IMG/VR virus record: IMGVR_UViG_3300025137_000099 | Coordinates: 1 to 38,591 of that record | Reading direction: 5' to 3' (one strand) | Length of the DNA stretch: 38,591 nt | Source of the DNA: a virus | Part shown: positions 26,730 to 28,401 of the stretch, one piece after another | Numbering within the stretch: the first letter of the stretch is position 1 | How the letters are laid out: each line of letters opens with the position of its first letter | The notes under the pieces: generated by a model | The model's database searches: none | What the model saw: the letters and a program-made list of their open reading frames with translations, nothing else | Told to the model about the DNA's origin: nothing | Translations under genes and position numbers: made by a program

Positions 26730-26959
26730 CATTCAAGGTTTCAGCATGGAACATGGACGGAACGGACATTGTGGAGATGGACGGTCCTATATCTCCTGAC
26801 AGGATTCATGAGTCTGAAATTGAACCTGTTGATTTACGGTGTCCACATTGCTTCAAGAAAAGCACAGTTGGTCACTTTAACTGGGACGCTTTAGTTTGCG
26901 GAGGCTGTAAGGAAGAGGTTGATCGTTTTGATTGGCTAATTCCTTTAGGTGAAAGATGA
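26726..26959 (+). CDS. Zinc-ribbon protein (77 aa)
   Basis: The N-terminal beta segment (MTFKVSAWNMDGTDIVEMDG) precedes a zinc ribbon LRCPHCFKKSTVGHFNWD and LVCGGCKEEVDRFDW. It is coupled at both ends by ATGA overlaps to a charged peptide and an XRE-type regulator. It might help the neighbouring regulator or bind nucleic acid. Confidence 0.6.
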   Translation: MTFKVSAWNMDGTDIVEMDGPISPDRIHESEIEPVDLRCPHCFKKSTVGHFNWDALVCGGCKEEVDRFDWLIPLGER

Positions 26960-27171
26960 TAGATACGAGACGTTATTCTCCGCTGGTTAATGAGCTCAAG
27001 CAGATCATGAAGGAATCAGGACGCACCAGTCTTAATATTGCGGAAGAGTCTGGTGTTTCTTCTAGTACGTTGAGCACATGGTTTCATCGTCACAATCCGT
27101 CACTTCCGAACTTTGAGAATGTACTTAGAGAACTGGGATATTCTTTGAAAATCGAGAAGAATGAAACTTAA
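26956..27171 (+). CDS. XRE-family (Cro/CI-like) transcription regulator (71 aa)
   Basis: Residues about 8-66 form a helix-turn-helix of the HTH_3 type: LVNELKQIMKESGRTSLNIA, EESGVSSSTLSTWFHRHNPS, LPNFENVLRELGYSLKI. Length is that of a DNA-binding domain alone, as in Cro. It is the only classical repressor-like protein in the window. It is a candidate to bind the CC..GG dyads in the promoters at 20302, 22186, 22971 and 26387. It overlaps the methyltransferase start by 11 bases. Confidence 0.75.
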   Translation: MIDTRRYSPLVNELKQIMKESGRTSLNIAEESGVSSSTLSTWFHRHNPSLPNFENVLRELGYSLKIEKNET

Positions 27172-27994
27172 AACCTTGGACCTGTTTTCTGGGATCGGTG
27201 GCTTTGCGCGAGGGCTCGAAGCCACCGATTTTTTTGAGACGAGCTGCTTTATAGAACAAGAGCCCTACTGTCAGGCCGTACTGAAACATCATTGGCCCGA
27301 CGTTCCCGTGCTAGGAGACATACGCGATGTCCGAAGATCCGACCTACCCGACCCAGACCCCGATGTTATTTGCGGAGGATTCCCTTGCCAGCCATTCAGT
27401 CACGCGGGACGGCAGCCCAAGGCTCAAGACGACCCCCGTCACCTCTGGCCAGAGATGTTTAGGCTTATCAGGGAATGCCGGCCCACTTGGGTTGTTGGAG
27501 AAAACGTTGCTGGAATCATCAACTTGGGCTTGGACGAAGTACTCGCTGACTTGGAGAGCGAAGGCTACGCCACAAGGACGTTTAATATTCCAGCTTGCGC
27601 GGTTGGCGCCCCGCACATCAGGCAGCGGATTTGGGTTGTTGCACACGCCGACAGCCAAAGCGAACCAGATGGCGCCTTCGATGGCAACGCGGGACAGCGG
27701 CAGTTGGGGTTTGGGTTTATGGCCGACACCCAACGCAAGAGAGAAGGGCGGCGGGGAGTATCAGGACCCGGAAAAGATAAAAGCAAGAATGGAAAAGGGT
27801 CATCAGGCCAACTTGGGGGACATGGTGAAGCTGGACCAGAAGAGTGGTGGGAAGTTGAGCCCTCTGTGGGTCGCTTGGTTAATGGGCTACCCAACCGAGT
27901 ACCTCAACTCCGTGCCTTGGGAAACTCCATCGTCCCGCAAATCGCAGAAGAAATCGGAAACGCAATAAAGGTAGCAGAACAATGGAAGCCATAA
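27161..27994 (+). CDS. DNA (cytosine-5) methyltransferase (277 aa)
   Basis: Motif I LDLFSGIGGFARGLE (residues 6-20), motif IV ICGGFPCQPFSHAGRQ with catalytic Cys76, motif VI GENVAGI (113-119), motif VIII RQRIWVVAHA (154-163) and motif X RALGNSIVPQIAEEIGNAI near the C-terminus are all present. The enzyme should therefore be active. It transfers methyl from S-adenosylmethionine to cytosine C5, probably to shield phage DNA from host restriction. The target recognition region (about 165-245) is short. No partner endonuclease lies next to it. Residues 58-68 (RRSDLPDPDPD) carry a GACCC-like repeat. A long second frame is embedded (27327-27968). Confidence 0.9.
   Translation: MKLKTLDLFSGIGGFARGLEATDFFETSCFIEQEPYCQAVLKHHWPDVPVLGDIRDVRRSDLPDPDPDVICGGFPCQPFSHAGRQPKAQDDPRHLWPEMFRLIRECRPTWVVGENVAGIINLGLDEVLADLESEGYATRTFNIPACAVGAPHIRQRIWVVAHADSQSEPDGAFDGNAGQRQLGFGFMADTQRKREGRRGVSGPGKDKSKNGKGSSGQLGGHGEAGPEEWWEVEPSVGRLVNGLPNRVPQLRALGNSIVPQIAEEIGNAIKVAEQWKP
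27327..27968 (+). CDS. Overlapping-frame protein within the methyltransferase gene (213 aa)
   Basis: This frame lies entirely inside the methyltransferase gene in another frame and is open for 213 codons. Its ATG has an ideal AGGAGA ribosome site nine bases upstream (27313-27318). The product has motifs I associate with phage proteins usually annotated near cytosine methylases: SLTWRAKATPQGRLIFQLAR, PRTSGSGFGLLHTPTA, LWPTPNAREKGGG and LSPLWVAWLMGYPTEYLN. Function is unknown. Methylase-linked or anti-restriction roles are possible. Seen: frame, ribosome site, motifs. Inferred: translation. Confidence 0.65.
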   Translation: MSEDPTYPTQTPMLFAEDSLASHSVTRDGSPRLKTTPVTSGQRCLGLSGNAGPLGLLEKTLLESSTWAWTKYSLTWRAKATPQGRLIFQLARLAPRTSGSGFGLLHTPTAKANQMAPSMATRDSGSWGLGLWPTPNAREKGGGEYQDPEKIKARMEKGHQANLGDMVKLDQKSGGKLSPLWVAWLMGYPTEYLNSVPWETPSSRKSQKKSETQ

Positions 27995-28401
27995 TCATGT
28001 GCTTGGCGCTGAACATCTACTTTGAGGCACGTAATCAACCCGTTGAGGGTCAGGTGGCCGTGGGTCAGGTTGTAATCAACAGGGTGCTTGACGAGCGATA
28101 CCCTGATCATGCCTGTGACGTTATTACGCAAGGACCAACGTATCAGAACCGCAATCTGCCTATTCGACATATGTGTCAGTTTTCATGGTACTGTGACGGG
28201 AAGTCCGACATACCGACAGATCGGGATGCCTTTCGGTGGGCCACAGCACTTGCGCACGGGATTGCTAATGAGGATCTTACGGATGTAACCTATGGTTCAA
28301 CGCACTATCACGCAACGAGAGTGACTCCTGATTGGTCTCACAGAGCGAAACATACTGTAACAATAGGTGATCATATATTCTATAGGTGGGAACATGACTG
28401 A
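27982..28401 (+). CDS. SleB/CwlJ-type cell wall hydrolase, probable endolysin (139 aa)
   Basis: LNIYFEARNQPVEGQVAVGQ, VVINRVLDERYPDHACDVI, CQFSWYCDGKSD and STHYHATRVTPDWSH are the conserved features of Hydrolase_2 (PF07486), with the catalytic Glu in YFEAR. These enzymes cleave peptidoglycan glycan strands. No signal peptide is seen, so it would need a holin such as those at 15.5-18.6 kb. It overlaps the methyltransferase end by 13 bases. An early-operon lysin away from the holins is unusual. Confidence 0.85.
   Translation: MEAIIMCLALNIYFEARNQPVEGQVAVGQVVINRVLDERYPDHACDVITQGPTYQNRNLPIRHMCQFSWYCDGKSDIPTDRDAFRWATALAHGIANEDLTDVTYGSTHYHATRVTPDWSHRAKHTVTIGDHIFYRWEHD

Follow-up and report, generated by a model that had tools for sequence, protein, structure and literature searches.

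Two overlapping frames of the same DNA, with a probability of about 0.85, encode the two subunits of a single C5-cytosine DNA methyltransferase (MTase). They are located in a viral record of 38,591 bases, which is referred to, over its whole length, as the window; ten of its larger proteins were scanned, with terminase, portal, major head protein, primase, helicases and DNA polymerase among them. The shorter frame, termed beta, lies wholly within the longer one, termed alpha, on the same strand and one base further on (+1 frame). An AGGAGA-preceded second open reading frame (ORF) inside the MTase gene had been described in the initial annotation and was confirmed at 27327-27968 within 27161-27994 (AGGAGA-N8-ATG). 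The length of 213 codons given there for beta holds and excludes the stop codon, whereas the 278 codons given for alpha include it, the product having 277 amino acids. The motifs quoted at that time were found as given, namely RALGNSIVPQ in alpha and LWPTPNAREKGGG and WVAWLMGYPTEYLN in beta. The features of the locus are as follows:

27161-27994, plus strand: alpha, C5-cytosine MTase frame of 277 amino acids with motifs I-VIII and X (PF00145, phrog_363, AF2 catalytic domain closest to M.HhaI)
27179-27205, plus strand: alpha motif I, DLFSGIGGF, outside the overlap (alignment A4)
27313-27318, plus strand: AGGAGA Shine-Dalgarno site of beta, 8 nt upstream of the ATG (from the sequence; matches enriched at the beta ATGs of relatives)
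27327-27968, plus strand: beta, nested +1-frame ORF of 213 amino acids with ATG start, recognition-type segments and motif IX (phrog_1008, E 9.4e-25; selection tests)
27374-27400, plus strand: alpha motif IV, GGFPCQPFS, with the catalytic PC (G73, P75, C76, Q77 and S80 invariant in 85 sequences)
27717-27755, plus strand: beta LWPTPNAREKGGG, one PTPxAxD-type segment (P133, T134 and P135 each shared by at least 90% of 98 sequences)
27852-27905, plus strand: beta motif IX-like KLSPLWVAWLMGYPTEYL (M186 and P189 identical in all 98 sequences; no change at the 36 underlying fourfold sites in five close pairs)
27911-27940, plus strand: alpha motif X, RALGNSIVPQ (G254, N255 and P259 identical in all 85 sequences; helices predicted at 246-254 and 259-274)

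DLFSGIGGF and GGFPCQPFS are what we take to be motifs I and IV, respectively. Members of the alignments A3 (98 beta sequences) and A4 (85 alpha sequences) were picked by length and completeness. Alpha shares its first 11 nt with a helix-turn-helix (HTH) gene (26956-27171) and its last 13 nt with a cell-wall hydrolase gene (27982-28401; PF07486, E 2.5e-24), both on the same strand. Because of these overlaps, the HTH gene, alpha and the hydrolase gene appear to be translationally coupled.

Alpha matches PF00145 (E 1.4e-40, residues 4-166) and phrog_363 (E 5.7e-82), and the presence of the catalytic PCQ, ENV and GN motifs identifies it as a C5-cytosine DNA MTase. Besides the residues of motifs IV and X listed above, E114 and N115 are invariant in A4. 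Similarity to C5 MTases of known structure is confined to residues ~5-166. In the AF2 model (pTM 0.72), confidence is high for most of residues 1-165 and again at both motif X helices; residues 166-241 mostly show pLDDT values below 50, and disorder is predicted to about residue 243. The model resembles M.HhaI (Z 23.7, rmsd 3.4, 203 of 327 residues aligned), relative to which the missing part is presumably the small domain, which includes motif IX and the recognition region. In its model, alpha represents a catalytic domain with a disordered stretch at the place expected for the recognition domain. Motifs I-VIII and X are present and motif IX is absent, as in the large subunit of M.EcoHK31I-type enzymes, judging from the model and from matches ending at about residue 166.

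For beta, no family was found in Pfam or NCBIfam; it matches phrog_1008, as do all 98 aligned relatives. By means of tblastn, it was located in 132 phage records. Some records annotate it as a second gene, namely as 'g55 internal gene' in Paenibacillus phage Shelly and as 'putative Mte8-like protein' in E. coli phage fTaEco03, and the ORF annotated for a Porphyromonas phage is beta rather than alpha. The pair is also carried by the phages N15 and Bas73, which infect E. coli. Based on A3, beta carries PTPxAxD segments and a C-terminal end of the form LxPxWVxWLMGYPxxW. In a comparison of the beta profile with a profile of single-chain C5 MTases, LNPxWVEWLMGYPxGW aligned with RKLTPRECWRLQGFPDW, that is motif IX; this direct profile match is weak (E 0.063) and a pointer only. 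Placement of the motif IX-like segment in beta, i.e. in the small subunit as in M.EcoHK31I-type enzymes, is based on the relatives L369 and L375 (see below), which join this segment in frame with motifs I-VIII. Furthermore, PADLOC gave weak oMTase matches for 13 of the 98 beta members (best 3.1e-5) and MTase_II matches for five (best 0.0055); for beta of the window, the latter corresponds to the motif IX segment on profile positions 340-361 of 367. The AF2 model of beta is poor (pLDDT 62.6, pTM 0.24), a fold search with it returned no fold (best E 0.72), and against PDB sequences only matches to Csf1 with E 0.2 appeared, which were disregarded. The poor model without a fold match and the weakness of the direct motif IX match count against the two-subunit reading. 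A function of beta as a homing endonuclease was rejected, there being no HNH match in Pfam for the 98 beta members.

At loci fetched with beta, an overlapping MTase match was present in 80 of 80 viral and 80 of 80 bacterial cases; the bacterial loci are the best 80 of 237 and address the occurrence of beta without MTase, not the frequency of beta among MTases. The titles of the bacterial records with beta refer to Bacillota, Proteobacteria, Bacteroidetes, Acidobacteria, Anaerolineales, Verrucomicrobia and others. When plasmids were searched for a restriction-modification system of this layout, beta matched six records. The expectation that the 213-amino-acid product has independent relatives was borne out in part: none of the 80 viral and 80 bacterial loci had beta without an MTase, whereas other arrangements of its parts were observed in mycobacteriophage Relief gp77 and in the loci L369 and L375.

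Several loci deserve mention in their own right. One Roseovarius genome record contains five copies of the pair (L201, L202, L203, L205, L206) with identical match coordinates and identity, and two MTase-like and two beta-like frames follow in succession on one contig in L112, possibly as a tandem pair. The alpha search also found a small E. coli plasmid (L377) annotated as one long MTase gene. In a marine podovirus (L005, 1237-2180, plus strand), the start of alpha and its remainder are in different frames; the record annotates an 80-codon MTase and the beta ORF instead of one MTase, which would fit a sequencing error, a frameshift or a gene that is broken.

In Relief, gp78 has motifs I-VIII, and gp77, which is encoded in the +1 frame and partly overlaps gp78, has PTPxAxD segments, WMMGW / LNAAFSEWMMGWEEGW and MKIIGNGVVVQQ, a motif X. 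The beta profile scored 73 bits against the gp77 frame (in a search of six sequences, for which bits rather than E-values were used), and relatives fetched with gp77 show alpha and beta matches in separate frames one base apart in 16 of 18 cases. A single open frame of L369 holds motifs I-VIII, PTP segments, KLSDEFDEWLMGYSAGWITD and KACGNG; this frame shifts directly after GNG, and L369 may be a decayed or mis-assembled copy. The parts are found in two frames in L368, which is 84% and 73% identical to L369 in the two parts. In L375, motifs I-VIII, PRLSPPFVEWLMGLPAGHVTD and LKALGNGVVPQQ share one frame. The motifs are divided between the alpha and beta frames, and one-frame as well as differently split relatives exist. 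Because of the split in Relief and the one-frame relatives L369 and L375, the beta parts are considered to represent the missing middle of a C5 MTase.

These arrangements bear on the alternative that beta exists as a protein but has an unrelated function, e.g., in anti-restriction or regulation, and is overprinted on a self-sufficient MTase. Selection and a start signal demonstrate a protein and not its role; the beta model is largely unfolded, and many overprinted proteins are largely unfolded, too. Nevertheless, an unrelated function is unlikely, since alpha is without a folded small domain and motif IX, the beta parts are in frame with motifs I-VIII in L369 and L375 and make up the second half of the split MTase of Relief, and freed copies of beta amounted to 0 of the 160 loci fetched with beta.

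A programmed +1 frameshift after motif VIII would join the beta parts to alpha, making the enzyme partly a fusion chain. The constant frame relation, which is +1 in 142 of 143 non-redundant loci (the remaining one having another relation), and fused forms of the L369 type, in which the order of parts works in one frame, are in line with such an event. However, beta possesses a conserved start signal of its own, and conservation of its frame sets in about 110 codons ahead of the junction. The product of a single shift would, in addition, be without motif X, which sits in the alpha frame. A frameshift fusion is accordingly regarded as very improbable.

In order to evaluate selection on the second frame, 80 viral loci fetched with the MTase and without beta were used; they are the best 80 of 594 relatives and represent the nearer part of the family, and some of the contigs end within the gene. 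From 171 sources (the window and L001-L170), those whose middle 60 MTase residues were already represented were dropped, resulting in the 143 non-redundant loci, among which all 80 MTase-seeded loci were kept. Rather than being interrupted by stop codons in homologous genes, the second frame is open in these loci: a +1 ORF matching a beta profile was found in 80 of the 80 best MTase-seeded loci, and ten of ten more phage records likewise keep the frame open. The open +1 run of the window (217 codons) was reached in none of 300 synonymous-codon shuffles, for which the mean longest run was 87. With 300 shuffles per gene, the longest +1 run yielded values of ≤0.01 in 72 and ≤0.05 in 79 of the 80 loci. 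At ≤0.05, the +2 frame was exceptional in one and the antisense frames in 11, 4 and 0 of the 80 loci. Among the further phage records, the open-run test was weaker in some GC-rich members (L258, 0.06; L253, 0.035). Neighbouring non-MTase genes served as calibration (100 shuffles, 160 of 261 eligible genes) and gave values of ≤0.01 in 4 and ≤0.05 in 10 of 160 for the +1 frame; for the +2 frame, ≤0.05 was obtained in 27 of 160, which makes this control frame less well calibrated. Shuffles and calibration together rule out a chance or GC-driven open frame.

Conservation of the encoded product was also assessed by scores against a beta profile built from ten sequences (the window and nine phage records). 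Beta of the window reached 238.7 bits versus at most 115.6 bits in 50 shuffles, with the window itself among the ten profile sequences. The natural +1 frame exceeded all 20 shuffles in 80 of 80 loci (median 169 vs. 49 bits); when 50 shuffles were used, it ranked above every one of them in N15 and in ten of ten additional phage records. According to the column table, 107 beta-frame stops occur in the natural sequences, compared with 796 expected.

Silent sites provide a further line of evidence. In the 143 non-redundant loci, the fourfold third bases of conserved alpha residues carry an average of 0.12 bits before the overlap (14 sites) and of 0.81 bits inside (41 sites), a difference with p 2.4e-6 when sites are treated as independent; at alpha residues 254-266, the information is low again (0.07-0.21). 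Frozen third bases include T at Ala145 in essentially all of 139 sequences, T at Gly237 in 99% of 99 and G at Val236 in 97% of 94. The GC3 of the genes ranges from 0.29 to 0.67, and shared codon bias is therefore not the cause of the frozen bases. The window was also paired with five close sequences, and differences were counted at fourfold sites whose amino acid is unchanged. They numbered 40 of 76 ahead of the overlap, 32 of 163 across the catalytic part and 39 of 62 across the variable part; beneath beta motif IX there were 0 of 36, and beyond it 9 of 29. Moreover, the first beta-frame ATG is preceded by a Shine-Dalgarno match of at least 5 nt in 79 of the 143 loci, compared with 4.8% of 819 control ATGs, and by one of at least 4 nt in 111 of 143, compared with 20% of the controls.

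Both frames are under selection, and beta has its own start signal. The assertion of the initial annotation that the same bases are constrained in two frames is thereby supported by open-run shuffles, calibration, profile shuffles, frozen silent sites and the start signal. Constraint at the RNA or DNA level alone would leave the conserved +1 amino-acid motifs and the start signal unexplained. It is extremely improbable that the +1 frame arises as a side effect of codon bias and of the conservation of the MTase, with no protein made: although similarity is partly forced, as seen from the 49-bit median of shuffled MTase genes, and shuffles fairly often reach the open runs of L258 and L253, the natural profile scores lie above all shuffles in the 80 loci and the ten further phages, silent sites are frozen only within the overlap, and the MTases of E. 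coli K-12 (dcm), phi3T and Klebsiella phage KLB21 showed no nested beta in the same tests.

Other frames hidden in MTase genes were noticed as well. Streptococcal-type single-chain C5 MTases (L270-L344) feature an unusually long +1 open run in 18 of 18 non-redundant members (135-195 codons, each ≤0.01 versus shuffles), which extends over motifs II-VIII only (MTase codons 37-198 in L270); these MTases retain motifs IX and X in frame. Their +1 frame has no resemblance to beta beyond chance, the score of Javan83 being equalled by 10 of 50 shuffles. Because the 18 members are related, the long runs possibly reflect one event. In L375 (1865-2806, plus strand), a +1 ORF inserted between MTase motifs VI and VIII contains AAGLLDGEGC and looks, by eye, like a LAGLIDADG homing endonuclease; its only Pfam match was DUF7260 (E 0.033). 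Possibly it is another hidden homing element in a phage methylase.

For the pair in the window, we infer translation, assembly, activity, a target site and an anti-restriction role along the following lines. Ribosomes would start alpha at 27161 and, on the same message, beta at 27327 from the internal Shine-Dalgarno site. Alpha would supply the AdoMet-binding and catalytic domain (motifs I-VIII and X), and beta would add what alpha is without, namely motif IX and the portion of the small domain responsible for target recognition. Where the frames are nested, alpha may pass through the recognition segment as a disordered linker and then provide motif X. Both chains are predicted to assemble into an active enzyme methylating the phage DNA, which would so be shielded from host restriction. 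The earlier suggestion that beta is linked to restriction or methylation defence pointed in the right direction but was vague, as beta most likely serves as the other subunit of this MTase and not as a defence protein in its own right.

Since the variable stretch varies in both frames (as seen from its fourfold sites), target recognition may be carried by either frame, and the recognition domain of M.EcoHK31I, predicted to be in the large subunit (PMC3404938, in excerpt), counts against recognition in beta. Regarding expression, genes 78 and 77 of mycobacteriophage Kampy, both labelled 'DNA methylase' and assumed from name and order to correspond to those of Relief, were the most and 13th-most transcribed at 15 min, and their products are absent from the proteins listed as detected at 30-120 min in the available part of that report (PMC4626039).

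Extending this to the family level, a large family of phage and prophage C5 MTases that spans phyla and is annotated as single-chain enzymes is probably obligately two-subunit, with the subunit for recognition and motif IX nested in the catalytic gene in another frame. The recognition domain would evolve fast with both frames kept open; M.EcoHK31I would be one member of an ancient kind and not an oddity, and the same gene would exist in further states, namely the AquI-like split and the one-frame forms. It is unusual for double-stranded DNA phages to have long overlaps on one strand with strong selection in both frames, and that of the window is testable by simple genetics. If the two-subunit reading is true, many phage 'orphan MTases' are half described, and cloning the annotated gene happens to carry both subunits; codon-optimised synthesis would destroy beta and could yield an inactive enzyme. 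It would also offer a natural case for how a recognition domain changes beneath an overlapping frame, and account for the scattered labels found in records, e.g., 'internal gene', 'Mte8-like protein' or 'DNA methyltransferase' for a second time. Both phrog_363 (alpha) and phrog_1008 (beta) are labelled 'DNA methyltransferase', a label that is silent on shared DNA in two frames.

A search of open-licence PMC literature, which leaves other papers possible, returned no report of a nested beta in phage MTases, and the accessible portions of PMC6070908, PMC11860570, PMC5582158, PMC3025963, PMC8227390, PMC11536984, PMC6456624, PMC10274946 and PMC5944983 do not discuss it. What is known is the two-polypeptide layout; what was not found in print is that nesting occurs commonly across a widespread family of phages and is subject to strong selection in two frames. 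Hidden HNH endonucleases of the ShiLan type are second proteins from another frame of a phage DNA methylase gene, and are described, in the part of the source available, as insertions of patchy occurrence without a detectable ribosome site (PMC11855218). Unlike these, the overlap in the window extends across conserved motifs of the MTase, is present in each of the 80 relatives tested and comes with a Shine-Dalgarno site, and beta is no HNH ORF in an insertion missing from close relatives.

M.EcoHK31I recognises YGGCCR and is part of a restriction-modification system; M.EaeI is also a two-polypeptide C5 MTase of this kind. The small subunit of M.EcoHK31I was reportedly found by Lee, Kam and Shaw in 1995 to be read from another frame inside the large-subunit gene. 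In contrast to that restriction-modification system, the pair of the window resides in a phage, and no endonuclease was recognised nearby among the tested proteins. In the accessible text of PMC3404938, the two-polypeptide C5 MTases M.AquI and M.EcoHK31I are described as exceptions, and the latter is termed naturally split in that of PMC3439449. Like M.AquI (PMC3404938, in excerpt) and Relief gp78/gp77, the C5 MTase of the window is divided after motif VIII into two chains. However, motifs IX and X are both in the second, only partly overlapping chain of M.AquI and Relief, whereas beta is fully nested and motif X is in the alpha frame (27911-27940). In M.EcoHK31I, the large subunit bears motifs I-VIII and X, and the small one bears motif IX (PMC3404938, in excerpt). 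The recognition domain of this enzyme is predicted, in the same excerpt, in the large chain, where alpha of the window is predicted to be disordered, with the PTPxAxD segments in beta. As in M.EcoHK31I, likened here by described layout and not by sequence, alpha carries motifs I-VIII and X and beta motif IX, with the beta ORF nested in another frame.
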